Source: Rhodomicrobium lacus (GTDB lineage Bacteria; Pseudomonadota; Alphaproteobacteria; Rhizobiales; Rhodomicrobiaceae). Taken from it: DNA of 64,000 nucleotides. The stretch covers positions 1,488,501 to 1,552,500 of the forward strand of contig NZ_RZNF01000012.1 in NCBI RefSeq assembly GCF_003992725.1, in the 5' to 3' direction. Below, one piece after another: positions 46,999-57,956 of the stretch; positions within the stretch are counted from its first letter, which is position 1; every line of letters begins with the position of its first letter. The notes under the pieces were generated by a model that saw only the letters and a program-made list of their open reading frames with translations, ran no database searches and was not told the DNA's origin. A program made the translations under genes and the position numbers.

Positions 46999-47853
46999 TT
47001 AGTGGTCCTCCCGCAGCCAGGACAGTCTGCTTATCAGCCGTTGCAAAAGCACGTCCAACGTGAAGCCGATAAGCCCCACGATCAGAACGATCGCGGCAAG
47101 GCGATCGTATTCCAACGTGTCGCGGGCATCGTTGATGGCGTAGCCGAGGCCCGATTTTACCCCGAGATATTCGGCGGGCACGAGAACGATCCAGCCTACG
47201 CCAAGCGCGAGCCGGATGCCTGTCAAAATATCCTGCGAGATGGCGGGCAAGATGACCGCCGTGAGTTGGTGATAGGAATTTGCACCCAGATTGCGCGCAA
47301 CCTTGAACCAGGACGGGTCTATGCGCCTCACGCCCGCGGCGGTCGAAAAAAGGATAGGCCATATCGCGGCGGCGGCGATCAGAAAGACGATGGCCCCCTC
47401 CCATGTGGAAAAGGCCAGGATCGCAACCGGCATCCAAGAGAGAGGGCTGATCATTCGAAGAAACTGGAAGGGTACGTTCGTGATCTGCCGCGCAACGCTT
47501 GAACGGCCGATCAGGATGCCGAGCGGCACGCCCAAAACCGTCGCCCATACGAGGCCAAGCCCGACGCGCCAAAGGCTGGGAGCGGCGATGCCCCACACCT
47601 CGCCCGAGCTGACCATCTCGCCCAGACTTCGCAGGGCCGGGATCGGCCCGAATCCCGCGAAGGACGTCGTGTTCGGATTGATCGCGACGAGCCAGCCGCC
47701 CAGCGCCCAGACGAGGAAAAGGCCGCCGATCCCAGCCGCCGTAAGCGCCACCGATCGAAACCGAGCGAACAGCGCGCCGCGCCGCTCGCGGGACAAGCCC
47801 GGAATGCGTTCCGCAGGGTAGGCGGCAGCTTCGCCGGCAACGTCAACCGTCAT
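46999..47853 (-). CDS. ABC transporter permease (nitrate/sulfonate/taurine type)
   Basis: Inner-membrane channel of an importer. The 284-residue protein from the ATG at 47853 has six hydrophobic segments and the coupling loop RNLGANSYHQLTAVILPAISQDILTG, with GWIVLVPAEYLGVKSGLGY after it, as in SsuC/NrtB/TauC permeases. The ATG overlaps the binding-protein stop (ATGA). It is the last gene of the ATPase-binding protein-permease operon. Confidence 0.9.
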   Translation of the reverse strand: MTVDVAGEAAAYPAERIPGLSRERRGALFARFRSVALTAAGIGGLFLVWALGGWLVAINPNTTSFAGFGPIPALRSLGEMVSSGEVWGIAAPSLWRVGLGLVWATVLGVPLGILIGRSSVARQITNVPFQFLRMISPLSWMPVAILAFSTWEGAIVFLIAAAAIWPILFSTAAGVRRIDPSWFKVARNLGANSYHQLTAVILPAISQDILTGIRLALGVGWIVLVPAEYLGVKSGLGYAINDARDTLEYDRLAAIVLIVGLIGFTLDVLLQRLISRLSWLREDH

Positions 47854-49103
47854 ACCTGCACGATCTCCTCGCGCACGAACGGATCGCCTTTCGAGACGCT
47901 TGGGTCGTCTTTCCACGCGGGGAACTTTTCCAGCGCTTGCTTGACGAAGGTGTAGTCCACGAGATCATCGGCAACGAAGGCGGGGTCGAGTTCTTTCAGG
48001 AACGACGTGTCGCCAGAAACGACGGTCTTGCTGAGGGCTTCGACGATGAGTTTCGTGGCCGACGGGTAAGGCCATGGCTGGAAGTCGATGCGACCGTTGC
48101 CCCATTCGGGATGCTGGATCGCCTTCCCCGGCCCGTAGGTTTCGAGGTCATACTTGTTGATGGCACGGTCGACGACTTCCGCCGGGACGGGCAGATAACC
48201 TTCGCCGTCCTTGGACAGGAGCCGCGCGACTTCCTTCTTGTTCTCGGACGCGTAGATCGACGCGCGCACGATTGCATTGACGACCTTTTGCGTCCACTCG
48301 GGCTTCTGCTTCGTAACCTGCTCGTTGACGGTGATGACGCAGCAGGGATGGTTCTTCCAGATGTCACCCGTAAAGCGCAGCAAGCGCGCGCCAGCCTTGA
48401 TTTCGCCAAGCGCATTGAAGGGCTCGGCCACGATGTACCCATCGATCTTCTTCGCGGCGAGCGATGGTGGCATGTCCGGGGGCGGGAGGATCTGGAGATT
48501 GACTTCGTTCGGAGCGATAGGCTCGCCCTCACCCTTGATGACCGGGGTCAGGCCTGCCGACCGAAGCCCTATCTGCAGAACGATGTTGTGCATCGAATAC
48601 CAGAACGGCACCGCGAGCTGTTTGCCGCCAAGTTCGGCGAAGGATGTCGCGGATATGTGCTGACCGACGACGAGGCCGGACCCGTTGGTGTGCCCCCATG
48701 ACACGATTTTCGCCGGGAACTTGTTGTTGTAGCGCATCCAGACGGGGATCGGCTTCAAGAGGTGAACGACGTTGAACTTCGCGGCGGCGAAGCCTTCGAC
48801 GAGCGCGGGCCAGCTGCGGATCAGAGTGGGCTTTTCGGCTTCGAGCCCTTCATCCCTGAAAAAGCCCTTGGCGTAGGCGACGAGAAGCACCGTCGCGTCG
48901 GTAATCGGGAGATAGCCGATGCGGACCACGTCATCTTCCGCTGCGTGCGCTGCTTGCGGATAGCCTCCCAAAGCGGTCGAAAAAGCCGCCCACAGTCCCC
49001 CGGCTGCAAGCATGTCGAGGGTCTGTCGCCGCGTTATGCCGCCGCCCTCGGCTTGTTGTTGATCGTCATGCCGCGCGTCGACTCCTTCGAGCTTCGTTGC
49101 CAT
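47850..49103 (-). CDS. ABC transporter substrate-binding protein, NrtA/CmpA-like, Tat-exported
   Basis: Periplasmic binding protein of the nitrate/bicarbonate/sulfonate class. The 417-residue product has a twin-arginine signal (ITRRQTLDMLAAGGLWAAF, residues about 24-42) and the family start VRIGYLPITDATVLLVAYAKGFF, then AKIVSWGHTNGSGLVVG and IDGYIVAEPFNALGEI. The ATG at 49103 follows GGAGGGG. Tat export suggests the protein folds before crossing the membrane. The ligand cannot be read from sequence; nitrate, bicarbonate or a similar small anion is possible. Divergent linkage to cooC-cooS is notable. Confidence 0.9.
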   Translation of the reverse strand: MATKLEGVDARHDDQQQAEGGGITRRQTLDMLAAGGLWAAFSTALGGYPQAAHAAEDDVVRIGYLPITDATVLLVAYAKGFFRDEGLEAEKPTLIRSWPALVEGFAAAKFNVVHLLKPIPVWMRYNNKFPAKIVSWGHTNGSGLVVGQHISATSFAELGGKQLAVPFWYSMHNIVLQIGLRSAGLTPVIKGEGEPIAPNEVNLQILPPPDMPPSLAAKKIDGYIVAEPFNALGEIKAGARLLRFTGDIWKNHPCCVITVNEQVTKQKPEWTQKVVNAIVRASIYASENKKEVARLLSKDGEGYLPVPAEVVDRAINKYDLETYGPGKAIQHPEWGNGRIDFQPWPYPSATKLIVEALSKTVVSGDTSFLKELDPAFVADDLVDYTFVKQALEKFPAWKDDPSVSKGDPFVREEIVQV

Positions 49104-49129: not shown

Positions 49130-49957
49130 TCAAATGCTCCAGTCGTCCGCGCCCTCGGCGAATGCGAGACCGGCCGCGCCTTCGTAAGCCGAAATAAGTG
49201 CGTGGCGCGCCGTCTCGAACCCTTCGTTCCCCGAGCCATGCCCGGCCCGGCGGATCGTGATGTCGTCGCGAATGCGGCCGGGCGACGCGGTCATGATGAG
49301 GGCACGATCCGCCATGATGGCCGCCTCGTTAACGTCGTGGGTCACGAGGACAAGCGTGATCCCCAGGGAACGAGCGATTCCTCGGATGTCCCGCTGAAGA
49401 GCGCTTCGCGTGAAGGCGTCCAGCGAGGAAAACGGTTCGTCAAGAAAAAGCGCGGCGGGGGCAAGCGCGAGAGAACGGGCAAGCGCGACGCGCTGCTGCT
49501 GGCCGCCTGAGAGATCCTGCACGTTTCGCTCGGCGAACTCGCTCAGTTCCACGAGTTTGAGAAGTTCCGCCACGCGGGCGGGCGCTTCCCGGCTCCTGCG
49601 GCTGAAGCGATATCCGAGGGATACATTTCCCGCGACGGTCAACCATGGAAGAAGCGATGGCTGCTGAAACATCATGACCCGGCGAGGCGAAGGCCCCTGC
49701 ACGAGCGTGCCGTCTATCCGCACCTCTCCGGCGGACGGGGTGATGAGACCGGCCATGATATGCAGTAGCGTCGACTTCCCGCACCCGGATCGACCGATCA
49801 GGGCAATGCATTCGCCGGGCTCGACGGTGAAGCTTATCCCATCCAGAGCCGTTTCTTTGGCGTGCCGGTAGCGGTGCGAGATGCCTGAAACCTCGATGCG
49901 GGAACCTCGGGGGGGCTCTTCCGCTGCGAGATGGTCCGCCGTCTGTGTCTTAGGCAT
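49130..49957 (-). CDS. ABC transporter ATPase (nitrate/sulfonate type)
   Basis: ATPase of the importer. The 275-residue protein shows Walker A GRSGCGKST, Q loop MMFQQPSLLPWLTV, signature LSGGQQQR, Walker B ALFLDEPFSSLD and the switch VTHDVNEA. It is the first gene of its operon; the binding protein starts 27 bases after its stop. It is divergent from cooC across about 315 bases. Confidence 0.94.
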   Translation of the reverse strand: MPKTQTADHLAAEEPPRGSRIEVSGISHRYRHAKETALDGISFTVEPGECIALIGRSGCGKSTLLHIMAGLITPSAGEVRIDGTLVQGPSPRRVMMFQQPSLLPWLTVAGNVSLGYRFSRRSREAPARVAELLKLVELSEFAERNVQDLSGGQQQRVALARSLALAPAALFLDEPFSSLDAFTRSALQRDIRGIARSLGITLVLVTHDVNEAAIMADRALIMTASPGRIRDDITIRRAGHGSGNEGFETARHALISAYEGAAGLAFAEGADDWSI

Positions 49958-50273
49958 GTCGGTCCGTTAGAGCTTGTACGAGCGGTTCCGGCGCCCTTGG
50001 CATCCCACTATAATCAAATGGCCAATCCAGCTTCCAGCAGAGGATGAATATCAAACCAAGATAAAATGGAATTTATCTCTGTGAACAACAATGCAAACGA
50101 ATGCTTCTAAAAAAGCCGAACGAATAGGTGGTTTATTTTTTGCAGTCGCGCCTGTTGAGCAAGGTTCAAATGCGCAGCGCGTAGCGCTTCAAGCGAAGGA
50201 GATTTGACAGGTTCCGAGTTCACCTCAATCTTGGCGAAGGCAAAAAGCTCGATTTTGCTTCCCCGGAGATCGG
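49958..50273. other. Divergent promoter region between the ABC operon and cooC
   Basis: AT-richer region of 316 bases with no gene. Visible elements are a six-base stem GCAAAA/TTTTGC at 50240-50258 just before the cooC ribosome site, and TTGAGCAAGGTTCAA at 50155-50169, which resembles an FNR site but has one base too many in the spacer. No clear CooA-type site was found. Confidence 0.5.
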
Positions 50274-51209
50274 ATGCCTCAAGTGTCAACGCGTGAAGCA
50301 ACGGACAGCGACGCAGAGCCTCGTACCGCCCTCAAGATCGCGGTTGCGGGCAAAGGCGGGGTAGGTAAAACCACAGTTGCGGCGGCCTTGGCGCGCGCGC
50401 TCGCCAGCCGAAATTTCAAGGTCCTCGCGGTGGACGCGGACCCGGACGCCAACCTCGCAAGCGCACTTCCGCTCGACGCGCCTGACATTCCTCCACCGCT
50501 CGCCACACAGCGCGATCTGCTGAAAGCTGTCGCAAGAGAGCATGGCGGATTACCCGCGGGGCTTTTCCTCCTCAATCCCGTTGTCGATGACATCCCTGTG
50601 CCGACGGTTTTCTGGGGCCAACGCAACCGCCTTGTCGTGTTGGGCTGGACGGCGCGGGGCGGCCAAGGGTGCTATTGCGATGAGAATTCGGTACTTCGCG
50701 CGGTGTTGCAGCGCCTGACCGCCGAGCCGGGCGAAGCCATTGTGGTGGACGGAGAGCCGGGGCTGGAGCATCTCAGCCGCGGAACGCTCGCGAGCGTCGA
50801 TGTTCTTCTCGCTGTGCTGGACCCCGGCGCACGGGCCGTTCAAACAGCGAAGACCATTCGCTCTCTGGCCTCCGATCTGGGCATTCCCTGGTGTCTTCCC
50901 ATCCTGTCCGGTGTCCGAAGCGCGGACGAAACTGGCAAGATTGGAGACTCGCTGGGCGACTGGCGGCTTTTCGGCGCGCTTCCTTTCGATCCCGCAATTG
51001 CTCGGGCTGATCTTGACGGACATCCGCCGGTCTTCGGAGCGGCGTTCGCCTCCGAGATCGAGCGCATCGTGACGGCGCTGCTTGCTCTCGATCATCGCCT
51101 GCACCAACCCGTGCAGTTTGCCCCGCGCGCCCACACGCATATCGGGCCAGACGGCAAGCCCTACGTCCATACGCACGCCGTCGACCCGACGCACAGCCAC
51201 GAACACTGA
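50274..51209 (+). CDS. cooC: CooC-type CODH maturation ATPase with histidine-rich tail
   Basis: MinD/SIMIBI-class ATPase that, in known systems, inserts nickel into CO dehydrogenase. The 311-residue protein has the deviant Walker A GKGGVGKTT (26-34), the Walker B-like DADPDANLA and the CxC metal motif CYC at 133-135. Unlike typical CooC of about 250-265 residues it ends in a 26-residue tail with seven His (HTH, VHTH, THSHEH), recalling the His-rich nickel chaperone CooJ. GGAG precedes the ATG. It ends three bases before cooS, so the two are co-translated. Confidence 0.92.
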   Translation: MPQVSTREATDSDAEPRTALKIAVAGKGGVGKTTVAAALARALASRNFKVLAVDADPDANLASALPLDAPDIPPPLATQRDLLKAVAREHGGLPAGLFLLNPVVDDIPVPTVFWGQRNRLVVLGWTARGGQGCYCDENSVLRAVLQRLTAEPGEAIVVDGEPGLEHLSRGTLASVDVLLAVLDPGARAVQTAKTIRSLASDLGIPWCLPILSGVRSADETGKIGDSLGDWRLFGALPFDPAIARADLDGHPPVFGAAFASEIERIVTALLALDHRLHQPVQFAPRAHTHIGPDGKPYVHTHAVDPTHSHEH

Positions 51210-51212
51210 GCC

Positions 51213-53129
51213 ATGGCACCGTACAGCCTGAAGGACTACAAGCGCGGCTTCCCCAAAAAGGCAGACGTGCGCGAGCGAACGCCCGACCCCGGCGTGCGCG
51301 AGATGATCGACCATCTCGACGAATGCGGTATCGAAACCTGCTTCGACCGCTTCGACAAGCAGGGGACCTGCGACTTCGGACTCGCGGGCATTTGCTGCAC
51401 AAATTGCAACATGGGTCCGTGCCGCATCACCCCGAGAGCCCAGCAGGGCATCTGCGGCGCCGACAAGGATCTGATCGTCGCCCGCAATCTTCTGCGCGCC
51501 CTCGCAGCGGGCGTGGCCGGACACGGCGCGCGGAGCCGCGAAGTTCTGCTCGCGTTGAAGGCGACCGCCCGGGGCGCCATGCCGGAAAGCCTTAAGGGCG
51601 AGGCAAAAATCCGGGGCACAGCCAAGGCCTTCGGTCTCGATCCCGCAGGCGACCTGAACGCGCTCGCCGAGCAGATCGCCGACATCCTGCTCGCCGACAT
51701 GGCGCGCGCCGAACCCGGTACGCATCGCACCTTGCAGAGCCTTGCTCCGCCCGAGCGGCTCGACACATGGGCTGATCTCGACATCATGCCGATCGGCTCC
51801 TACCACGAGGTGTTCGAGGCGCTCGCGCGCACCGGCGTGGGCACCGATGGCGACTGGCGAAATGTGATGCAGCAATTTCTCCGCTGCGGGCTGACGTTCT
51901 CCTGGAACAGCGTCACCGCAGGGGCCATCGCGCAGGATTGCCTCTACGGCCCACCCCATCGCTCCCGCATCAAGACCGATTTCGCAGCGTTGGAGACCGG
52001 CACGGTGAACGTTGCGCTCCACGGGCATTCGCCGGTGCTGGCCTCCGTCATCGTCCGGCTGGCGGACGATCCGGCGGTGAAAGCCGAGGTCGAAGCCGCG
52101 GGCGCCACCGGATTGCGCTTCTATGGCATCTGCTGCACCGGCTTGTCCGTCCTCTACCGGCAGGGAAATGTGTCGCCGCTCAGCAACGCTATGGGCGCTG
52201 AACTTGTACTCGGCACCGGCCTGATCGACGCCTGGATTGCCGATGTTCAGGACATCTACCCCTCGATAATGCAGGTCGCCGCCTGCTTTCACACCACGGT
52301 CATCACGACCAGCGATTCCGCGCGGCTCCCCGGCGCGCTTCACATCGGCTTCGATCACACCCACAGCAATCTGGCCGATGTGGAAGGTCTTGCGCGCCGC
52401 ATTCTGCATGTCGCTATCGCATCGTTCAAACGGCGGCAGCCCGAGAAGGCTTTCCGCCCCAAACACGGGTTCGACGCCGAAGTCGGCTTTTCCGCCGAGA
52501 ATGTTCTCCAGTCTTTCGGCGGGGCTGCAGCGCTTGTCGATCACCTCCGCACCGGACGGTTGAAGGGCGTGGTCAACCTCGTGGGCTGCAACAATCCGAA
52601 AGTTGTTTATGAAGAAGCGACTGTCGTGGTCGCGCAGCACCTCATCGCGAACGACATCCTCGTGCTGACCAATGGCTGCGCGTCGTTTCCGCTTCTGAAG
52701 CTTGGCTTCTGCACCGAAGATGCGCTGCGGCTGAGCGGAAAAAGTTCGCGTAGCGTTCTTGAAGAGGCGGGGCTGCCGCCGGTGCTGCACATGGGCGAAT
52801 GTCTCGACAACGCACGCGCGGCTGGGCTGTTTCGGGCTGTTTCGGATGCTGCGGGGCTGCCGCTCAAAACCATGCCCTTCGCCTTCGCCAGCCCCGAATG
52901 GTCCAACGAGAAGGGCATCGGAGCCGCCCTCGCGTTCCGGCTGCTCGGCCTCGATTCCTATCACTGCGTTTTTGCCGCGACCCTCGGCTCGGAGAACGTA
53001 CAGCGCTTCCTGGAGGAGGGAACCCGCGAACTGCTTGGCGCCGTCGCCATCGTCGAGACGAGCCCTTTGGAATTGGCAAGCCGCATCGTCGCCGACCTTG
53101 AGCGCCGACGCGCGGCGCTGTCCGGCTGA
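51213..53129 (+). CDS. cooS: CooS-like anaerobic CO dehydrogenase family protein with altered active site
   Basis: Homodimeric metalloenzyme of the Ni-CODH/hybrid-cluster superfamily. In the 638-residue protein the D- and B-cluster cysteines are intact: C53, C61, C62, C65, C70, C81. C-cluster ligands present are His272 (HGHSP), C308 (GICCTG), C459 (GCNN), C489 (NGCASF) and C530 (MGECLDN), plus Lys567. The remaining ligand, Cys in the canonical DYQC motif, is Asp347 here (DVQDIYPS). Of the proton-relay histidines only His104 remains. True CO oxidation is therefore doubtful; a hybrid-cluster, CooS-V-like enzyme is more likely. No cooF or hydrogenase gene is adjacent. Confidence 0.92.
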   Translation: MAPYSLKDYKRGFPKKADVRERTPDPGVREMIDHLDECGIETCFDRFDKQGTCDFGLAGICCTNCNMGPCRITPRAQQGICGADKDLIVARNLLRALAAGVAGHGARSREVLLALKATARGAMPESLKGEAKIRGTAKAFGLDPAGDLNALAEQIADILLADMARAEPGTHRTLQSLAPPERLDTWADLDIMPIGSYHEVFEALARTGVGTDGDWRNVMQQFLRCGLTFSWNSVTAGAIAQDCLYGPPHRSRIKTDFAALETGTVNVALHGHSPVLASVIVRLADDPAVKAEVEAAGATGLRFYGICCTGLSVLYRQGNVSPLSNAMGAELVLGTGLIDAWIADVQDIYPSIMQVAACFHTTVITTSDSARLPGALHIGFDHTHSNLADVEGLARRILHVAIASFKRRQPEKAFRPKHGFDAEVGFSAENVLQSFGGAAALVDHLRTGRLKGVVNLVGCNNPKVVYEEATVVVAQHLIANDILVLTNGCASFPLLKLGFCTEDALRLSGKSSRSVLEEAGLPPVLHMGECLDNARAAGLFRAVSDAAGLPLKTMPFAFASPEWSNEKGIGAALAFRLLGLDSYHCVFAATLGSENVQRFLEEGTRELLGAVAIVETSPLELASRIVADLERRRAALSG

Positions 53130-55404: not shown

Positions 55405-55631
55405 ATGATCACTCTCGAAAATCTCAGGGTCGGCGAGAACGCCCGCGTTGTCGGGTTTTCTTCCGGCGATCGAGGCTATCGCCAGCGCCTTCTCGCAATG
55501 GGCTTGACACCCGGCGCGACCTTCTCGGTCCAGCACCGCTCGGCGATCCGATCGAGATCAAGGTGAGAAATTTCAAACTCACGCTTCGGAAGGGCGAAGC
55601 GGCCATTCTGGAAGTCGAACGTCTCTCATGA
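55405..55631 (+). pseudogene. feoA: FeoA ferrous iron transport protein, frameshifted
   Basis: FeoA is a small SH3-like protein needed for FeoB function. The frame from ATG 55405 reads TLENLRVGENARVVGFSSGDRGYRQRLLAMGLTPGATFSV and then leaves the family pattern after 55530. From 55536 the conserved end PLGDPIEIKVRNFKLTLRKGEAAILEVE is read in another frame up to a TGA at 55629-55631, overlapping the feoB start. About one base is missing near 55531-55536. The total length fits a normal 75-residue FeoA. Confidence 0.85.
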
Positions 55632-57956
55632 AATGCCATCACACCATTGCTCTCGCCGGCAACCCTAATTGCGGCAAGACGACACTTTTCAACGGTCTGA
55701 CCGGGGCGACCCAGACAATCGGCAACTGGCCGGGCGTCACCGTGGAAAAGAAACTCGGCGCCTATGCCTGGAAGGGCACAAGCTACGAAATCGTGGATCT
55801 GCCGGGCGTCTACCTGCTTGCGAATGTCGGCCGCGGCTCGGAAGACGAGCGCGTCGCGCGCGATTACATCCTGAGCGGCGAGGCCGACCTGATCGTCAAC
55901 ATCGTCGATGCGTCGAACCTCGAACGAAATCTATACCTCACCACTCAATTACTCGAAATCGGCGTTCCGATCATCCTCGCGCTGAACATGTCCGACCTCG
56001 CGGAGAGGGGCGGGGTGGCGATCGACGCGGCGGCGCTCGGTCAGGCGCTCGGCTGTCCCGTCGTGCCCATGGTTGCGAGCAAGCGCAAGGGCGGCGAGGC
56101 GCTGAAGGCGGAAATCGCCCGAGCGGTGCAGGCTCCCTCGGCTCCGGCCGGTCGCCCGACGCAGGTTCCCGCAGTCGAAGCGGCAATCGATGTTCTGGCA
56201 CCGGCGCTGTCCGATGCGGCGAAGGCGGCGGGTGTCGATCCGCGCTGGGTCGCGCTGAAGCTCATCGAAGGCGACGATCGGGCGGAGCGGATCGCCGGGC
56301 CGAGCCTTACGGAAGAGGCGAAGCAGTTGCGCGCCGACGTGGAGAAGGCATGCGGCGAAGACGCCGACATCGTTATCGCGGATGGCCGCTTCCGTTTCAT
56401 CGCCGAGATCATGAAGGCGTGCCATCGCCAGAAGCACGCGGTCTCGACGACGCTCACGCAGCGCATCGATGCCGTGGCGCTCAACCGCTTCCTCGGCGTG
56501 CCGATCTTCCTCGTCGCGATGTACTTGATGTTCCTCTTCACCATCATGATCGGTGGCGCATTTATCGACTTCTTCGACAAGGGCGGTGAAGCACTGTTCG
56601 TCGACCTCCCCGAGCAGGGCCTTGCCGCCATCGGTGCGCCGGATCTCGTGCAGGTGATCGTGAAGGGCTTCGGCAGCGGCTTGCAGACACGCGACATTCG
56701 TGCCGATCATCGCCTGCCTGTTCCTGTTCCTCTCTTTCCTTGAAGACTCCGGCTACATGGCGCGCGCGGCCTTCGTGATGGACCGCGCCATGCGGGCCAT
56801 CGGCCTGCCCGGCAAATCCTTCGTGCCGCTGATCGTCGGTTTCGGCTGCAACGTGCCCGCGGTCATGGCGACGCGAACGCTCGAAACGCGCCGCGACCGC
56901 ATCCTGACCATCATGATGGCGCCGTTCATGTCCTGCGGGGCGCGGCTGCCGGTGTTCGCGCTCTTCGCAGCGGCGTTCTTTCCCTGGAGCGGACAGAACA
57001 TCGTTTTCCTCCTCTACATCATCGGCATCCTGTTCGCCGTGATGACGGGGCTCATCCTCAAGCACACGCTGCTTCGCGGTGAGGTCTCCCACTTCATCAT
57101 GGAACTGCCGCCCTATCACGTGCCGACCATGCGAACCGTGGTCATTCAGGCATGGCAACGGCTGCGCCGGTTCATTCTCAACGCGGGTCAGATCATCGTG
57201 CCGATGGTGATGGTGCTGAGCGTTCTCGCCAACATGGGCACCGATGGCAGCATCGGCCGCAAGGACACGCAGGATTCGGTGCTGGCGTCCGTAAGCCATG
57301 AGCTGATGCCCGTATTCAGGCCCATCGGCCTTACGGACGAGAACTGGCCTGCGGCGGTTGGCTTGTTCACCGGCATTTTCGCGAAGGAAGCGGTCGTCGG
57401 CACGCTGAACGCCCTTTATTCACAGGTCGATCAGGCGGCAGGCGAAGGCCGCGAGAAGGCCGGAGAGGAGCCCGTGTCGGTGCTCGACAAGCTGGGTGAG
57501 GCCGCCGCGTCAGTCCCGCACAATCTCGCCGAGATCGGCAGCAAGATCGTCTCGCCTGCGATAGACGTCGGTTATGTCGGCGACACGGCGCAGGCGGCGG
57601 AGAAGCTCGAAGTCAACAGCCAGGTATTCGGCGCCATGCAGTCGCGCTTCGACGGCACGGCAGGCGCTTTCGCGTACATGCTGCTGATTCTGCTCTATGT
57701 GCCCTGTGTGGCCGCGCTCGGCGCGATCCGGCACGAGGTGGGCCTACGCTGGACCGTCTTCGCGACAGTCTGGACGACTGGCCTTGGCTACATCACGGCA
57801 GTGTCGTTCTACCAGGTCGCAACATACAGCCGCGATCCGGCGACGGCACAAAACTGGCTGATGACTTGCGCGCTCGTCTTCTGCGTTGCCCTGCTGTCCA
57901 TGTGGCTTGCCGGGCTCGCGCAAGGGCGTCGTCTCGCGGCGCTTCCGGCGAAGTGA
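55628..57956 (+). pseudogene. feoB: FeoB ferrous iron transporter, frameshifted
   Basis: FeoB imports Fe2+ through the inner membrane with an N-terminal G domain. The first part (55628 to about 56690) has G1 GNPNCGKTT, G3 DLPGVYLL and G4 NMSD, then the first membrane segment, and breaks after GFGSGLQT. From about 56696 another frame gives TFVPIIACLFLFLSFLEDSGYMAR, GFGCNVPAVMATRT and the rest of the channel to 57956. Two bases missing (or one extra) near 56690 explain the break. The second part holds an internal ATG at 56700, but a separate functional subunit is unlikely. Confidence 0.88.

Follow-up and report, generated by a model that had tools for sequence, protein, structure and literature searches.

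The window, by which we mean the whole stretch of 64,000 nucleotides of Rhodomicrobium lacus DNA analysed here, carries a cooS-like gene whose sequence identifies it as a clean new member of a known, uncharacterised branch of the carbon monoxide dehydrogenase (CODH) family, clade B, group B-2. None of the proteins in this clade has a measured substrate, metal content or activity on record (PMC13056359). Together with the adjoining CooC and a divergently transcribed ABC importer (Table 1), the encoded CooS stands, in our judgement, about an even chance of forming a sulfur-acquisition module. Neighbour statistics, gene layout and a signature in the importer suggest the link of clade B to sulfur, and evidence pointing the clade in this direction is the main interest that the present analysis adds.

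Table 1. Features of the cooS locus, with window positions, strand and supporting evidence
Feature	Position	Strand	Evidence
cooS-like gene, clade B structural group B-2, 638 aa	51213..53129	+	Prismane 435 bits, 82-sequence alignment, tree, AlphaFold2
Asp347 codon (position of CODH-II Cys333)	52251..52253	+	alignment
cooC, Ni-insertion ATPase homologue, ends 3 bases before cooS	50274..51209	+	phmmer to C. hydrogenoformans CooC 3kje, E 7e-39
CooC CxC motif C133-Y-C135 (metal-binding in known CooC)	50670..50678	+	aligned to 'CYCRENS' of 3kje
CooC His-rich C-terminal tail AHTHIGPDGKPYVHTHAVDPTHSHEH, 7 His in 26 residues	51129..51206	+	
ABC transporter ATPase, NitT/TauT type	49130..49957	-	
Periplasmic substrate-binding protein, Tat-like signal, invariant H148, H182, M221, C264-C265	47850..49133	-	NMT1_2 142 bits
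ABC transporter permease	46999..47916	-	BPD_transp_1 74 bits
Intergenic region between divergent ABC operon and cooC-cooS, control elements expected	49958..50273	.	sequence

The cooS open reading frame starts with ATG and contains no internal stop. An AlphaFold2 model computed from 29 sequences of the window family (mean pLDDT 87.3) matched solved CODHs with TM scores of 0.91-0.92 in a structure search. Relatives were gathered in a scan of GTDB genomes for which the window protein and a relative from Ruminococcus albus served as seeds; it returned 80 loci whose proteins are 52-62% identical to the window CooS. About 780 sampled order- and class-level genomes yielded no clade-B relative; this sample gave four hits beyond the window's own, three of them canonical CODHs, and nothing else. 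In a tree of clade B and canonical CODHs, clade B forms one group of 26 with support of 100/100. The window protein, for which the initial annotation had left the place in a CooS tree to be found, falls within this group on an early, long branch near Thiobaca. The 82-sequence set also includes Ruminococcus flavefaciens (loci L083 and L087), a named clade B member (PMC13056359). Within the clade, the window CooS has one histidine in its N-terminal segment and none in its C-terminal segment; this lack of a His-rich extension, combined with the clade-B signature, assigns it to group B-2. Its D-cluster is of type II (C53, C61 and C62, with a spacing of X7 under the definition Cys-(X)7-13-Cys-Cys). 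The same genome holds a second Prismane-family gene, a 538-aa open frame (G000:C4:94975-96534, L001) that is probably a hybrid-cluster protein by its size.

The other clade-B CooS proteins mostly carry a His-rich N- or C-terminus of their own and have no CooC nearby, whereas in the window the histidines are placed on the chaperone. The tail is missing from the CooC of Thiobaca, the only other clade-B locus in the set with this gene, and from four other CooC proteins compared. An intact CxC motif together with a His-rich tail points to nickel, and we infer that the window enzyme is probably nickel-dependent, with a modified Ni-Fe-S cluster built with the help of CooC. No ferredoxin (CooF), hydrogenase or ACS gene was recognised in the window neighbourhood, nor any sulfur-metabolism gene beside the window copy, and an Rfam scan of the window returned tRNA only. 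Elsewhere in the genome, a NiFe hydrogenase is present, while neither a Mo-CODH large subunit nor a cyanase was found. Genes of the pufL/pufM type, encoding the photosynthetic reaction centre, agree with the phototrophic host that had been guessed from the sequence. Four congeners yielded no cooS and, at the thresholds used, neither the binding protein nor its neighbouring MFS gene. DNA synteny with two congeners ends at the start of uvrB (window ~59931), and nothing equivalent to the whole 35-59 kb stretch of the window lies directly upstream of that gene in either of them, which places cooS in a lineage-specific region. At 55628-57956, a FeoB-like ferrous iron transporter appears to be split into two overlapping ORFs of 371 and 418 aa in different frames, which suggests a frameshift or an assembly error.

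Gene neighbours across the clade provide the first indication of a sulfur role. A blind Pfam tally covered called genes of 100-900 aa lying no more than 2.5 kb from the CooS-ABC unit, in all 142 proteins at 42 dereplicated loci. The commonest family was Cys_Met_Meta_PP, with 9 observed against 0.42 expected from per-genome counts (P ~8e-10, for loci that are not fully independent, some members sharing a locus), and the tally also held two CysK-type proteins and two PAPS reductases. Within 6 kb of clade-B cooS, genes of the MetY family (Cys/Met PLP) occur at 13 of the 80 loci, CysK at five and CysE at three, in distant lineages. The CooS-ABC genes of Geobacteraceae sit between the sulfate-binding protein Sbp and CysT of a sulfate importer, and the Thiobaca locus has CysA and a CysB-family regulator directly upstream. 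Most clade-B loci have no close sulfur gene. Cysteine synthase beside cooS in Megasphaera has been listed as a minor context type (PMC11338639), and the main texts of the surveys consulted give no sulfur role for clade B.

Other elements recur around clade-B cooS genes. Riboswitch scans of 18 loci found none clearly controlling cooS. An S-box (SAM riboswitch) lies on the opposite strand near MetY-CooS-ABC in two Chlorobiaceae loci (L020 4763-4902 and L022 4753-4892), and a T-box leader precedes cysE-cysK-cooS in Megasphaera (L053 5467-5681). Genes for two small membrane-protein-like products, about 128 and 103 aa long, each abut cooS in 14 loci, mainly of Ruminococcus (L007, L083, L071, L075, L046 and others).

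The second indication comes from the importer. His148, His182, Met221 and the pair Cys264-Cys265 of its binding protein are invariant in 60 of 60 CooS-linked binding proteins; a nitrate/bicarbonate relative has Thr, Gly and Lys at positions 148, 264 and 265. The window binding protein shares only 27-28% identity with its counterparts in Geobacteraceae and Bacillota. Ten Rhizobiales genes carry this signature too, with no CooS match in the flanks examined. A cyanase-like gene occurs in three of these ten regions and was confirmed by family models in two; the best-annotated region also encodes a rhodanese, OsmC, a ferredoxin reductase and an acyl-CoA-dehydrogenase-like protein. Related gene sets are carried on plasmids of Rhodobacteraceae, Marinobacter (with cynS) and Methylocystis, and on plasmid pANL of Synechococcus a signature-bearing importer comes after cysK and genes for a gamma-glutamyltransferase and an acyl-CoA-dehydrogenase-like protein. 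Many genes of pANL are induced by sulfur starvation (PMC8049743), and the importer may be among them. Thus, the occurrence of the signature in importers free of cooS argues against nickel as the cargo and for a small sulfur compound.

The combination of the His and Cys-Cys importer with OsmC, an acyl-CoA-dehydrogenase-like protein, a rhodanese and a FAD reductase, often with cyanase, is recurrent (L104-L107 in Rhizobiales; L114, L115, L117 and L118 on plasmids). In appearance this cluster is an aerobic pathway acting on an organosulfur or thiocyanate-like compound, and a literature search for a named thiocyanate/OsmC/cyanase importer cluster returned nothing fitting.

Nickel is at the centre of a rival reading. 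The importer might bring in Ni2+, which His-rich segments and CooC would deliver to a nickel enzyme of unspecified, possibly CO-linked function (Inoue 2019). The His-rich tail of the window CooC and the His-rich termini of most clade-B CooS proteins fit such a module, and the His and Cys-Cys of the binding protein could bind metal; the structure 3un6, which matches the window binding protein with an E-value of 5e-68 and has the His and the Cys-Cys, was reported as metal-binding (Inoue 2019, PMC6344411). Nickel genes (urease, NikM, LarBCE) are also the second, smaller theme among clade-B neighbours, which is consistent with a nickel enzyme, although they were identified by eye from sequence and Pfam named only CbiM and Ni_insertion. 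However, the importer signature is equally invariant beside cyanase, rhodanese, OsmC or cysK, where no nickel enzyme was recognised, and the blind tally is led by sulfur genes and not by nickel genes. We therefore give nickel delivery a minor share of the probability. Its narrowest form, an ABC transporter serving purely for nickel import, was rejected on the strength of the cooS-free importers. The loci concerned are L061 and L072 (urease, NikM), L063 and L066 (LarBCE) and L026, L031 and L050 (NikM/CbiM), and LarC among these neighbours offers a His-rich example.

The active site was compared in an alignment of the window CooS with 81 close relatives, CODH-II of Carboxydothermus hydrogenoformans and five further CODHs from outside clade B, in which the CODH-II numbering sequence is identical to the PDB chains at 636/636 residues. 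The equivalent residues (window = CODH-II) are H272 = H261, C308 = C295, D347 = C333, C459 = C446, C489 = C476, C530 = C526, H104 = H93 and K567 = K563. The initial annotation had read Asp347 as a replacement of Cys333 with the other C-cluster ligands retained, and had allowed that another alignment might bring a Cys to this position or that close homologues might differ. Its reading holds: DVQDIYP aligns with DYQCIQP without a gap, no reasonable alternative places a Cys at 347, and all 82 clade-B proteins have Asp at this position, where the canonical CODHs have Cys (6/6). A sequencing or alignment artefact is excluded by the same conservation and gapless block. Asp347 is nevertheless a clade trait, tabulated in 2019 as Asp at the second C-cluster Cys and a hallmark of groups B-1 to B-3 (Inoue 2019, PMC6344411, Table 2); it is neither a discovery of this window nor the mark of a new CooS-V.

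Further replacements near the active site run through the clade: Asp219 to Phe229 and Ser525 to Glu529 in 82/82 proteins each, and Ile567 to Ala571 (Ala in 81/82). These three are missing from the published clade table (PMC6344411), and, like the upstream cooC, the divergent ABC transporter and the separate Prismane-family gene of hybrid-cluster size, they went unremarked in the initial annotation. The 'dismantled proton relay' that it proposed is correct as far as His96, His99 and His102 are concerned, which are R107, E110 and L113 in the window, but is overstated as a description of the site. All 82 clade-B proteins retain the acid-base pair His93/Lys563, position 96 is His in 50/82 and Arg in 32/82, and positions 99 and 102 vary among the canonical CODHs checked too. 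In the clade-B alignment of 29 sequences Cys500 does not vary, at a position where CODH-II apparently has Met.

With the remaining ligands, His93 and Lys563 in place, a CODH fold and a CooC, the protein could still be a working CODH in which the Asp-ligated cluster turns CO into CO2 and back to some extent, and its role might then be to detoxify or scavenge CO. This has a small chance of being right, as Cys333 is lost clade-wide together with Asp219, Ser525 and Ile567, and none of the CO-linked partner genes sought was recognised near the window cooS. The score against the NCBIfam CODH model TIGR01702, 473.9, also falls just under the cut-off of 478. The warning that a CO dehydrogenase label would mislead is probably justified, given this score and the non-canonical C-cluster: with Asp347, the five-Cys, one-His set of a canonical CODH is incomplete.

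The initial annotation had suggested an activity the same as or related to that of CooS-V, with an Fe-S-O cluster that would reduce hydroxylamine; in a wider form of this reading the enzyme would counter nitrosative stress. Both proteins share the Prismane fold and have lost one C-cluster Cys, and Asp would be an oxygen ligand. The ligand lost is a different one, however, with Cys295 and His93 kept; CooS-V appeared only at rank 44 of the structure search with 28% identity, below canonical CODHs at 33-34%; hydroxylamine reductase models gave about 24 bits against cut-offs above 360; the CxC motif of CooC argues for nickel; and the genome has another Prismane-family gene. The residue-level observation was right and the analogy drawn from it wrong, leaving a CooS-V-like function a very slight chance. 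Slimmer yet are the prospects of a degenerate or regulatory protein without catalysis, for which the non-canonical cluster and the many clade-B loci elsewhere without a maturase (PMC13056359) could be cited. Against this, neither the acid-base pair nor any of the other cluster ligands changes across 82 proteins that come from many phyla and are 52-62% identical to the window protein, a pattern suggestive of selection on a catalytic site.

The sulfur-acquisition reading can be extended, more tentatively, to the whole clade. Clade B proteins could be Ni-Fe-S desulfurases with an Asp-ligated iron that convert a thiocyanate-like thio-compound, supplied by the dedicated importer, to sulfide for cysteine and methionine synthesis, as the anaerobic counterpart of the O2-dependent flavoprotein/OsmC/rhodanese/cyanase route that uses the same importer; we consider this possible and somewhat short of probable. 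In the proposed mechanism, the importer would take up the small sulfur compound and nickel on Cys530 would attack its carbon. The C-S bond would then be broken reductively, with His104 and Lys567 protonating the leaving group. Asp347 would ligate one cubane iron in place of Cys and may shift the potential or open the site, and Phe229, Ala571 and Glu529 would reshape the pocket away from CO2. The sulfide released would pass to MetY or CysK for the synthesis of cysteine or homocysteine. The residues with their clade-wide invariance, the gene layout, the neighbour statistics and the importer signature are direct observations, and nickel, Asp as a ligand, the substrate, the direction of the reaction and the product are inferred. 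Thiocyanate is the leading guess and fits cyanase and rhodanese best, but the substrate may be another small thio-compound or an organosulfur anion. The window genome lacks a cyanase, so a cyanate product could not be used there by that route. Asp-ligated 4Fe-4S clusters have precedents, and a CODH reportedly acted on COS in a 1995 study, reducing it to CO and H2S. Should the sulfur link prove correct, a gene that is common in gut and rumen and now carries the annotation CO dehydrogenase would need a new assignment, and sulfur would join CO and the hybrid cluster as a third kind of chemistry on the CODH scaffold.

Compared with known systems, the window is closest to clade B group B-2, with which it shares a type II D-cluster, the C-cluster pattern H-C-D-C-C-C, the acid-base His and Lys, an adjoining NitT/TauT ABC transporter and a CooS without a His-rich extension. 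It differs in that cooC adjoins cooS and CooC bears the His-rich tail, whereas most clade B loci have no maturase. With CODH-II it has in common the fold, the B- and D-clusters, five of the six protein ligands of the C-cluster and His93/Lys563, and it departs from it in Cys333 to Asp, Asp219 to Phe, Ile567 to Ala, Ser525 to Glu and the absence of recognised CO-linked partner genes. CooS-V, a member of clade D-1, likewise has a CODH scaffold with one C-cluster Cys exchanged for a carboxylate, but there Glu replaces Cys295, Tyr takes the place of the acid-base His and the D-cluster belongs to type III (PMC6344411 Table 2; PMC9311411). The window protein lost Cys333 and keeps the rest, so that C308, H104 and its type II D-cluster set it outside clade D-1. 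Nor is it a hybrid-cluster protein, having Cys and not the HCP-type Glu at the Cys295 position and scoring 24.4 bits against TIGR01703 (cut-off 360.8). Finally, the importer shares an NMT1-type binding protein, a permease and an ATPase with those of the NrtA/CmpA/SsuA type; the nitrate/bicarbonate relative has Thr and Gly-Lys where the window has His148 and Cys264-Cys265; the nearest solved close family member of the window binding protein is 3un6, which shares both the His and the Cys-Cys.
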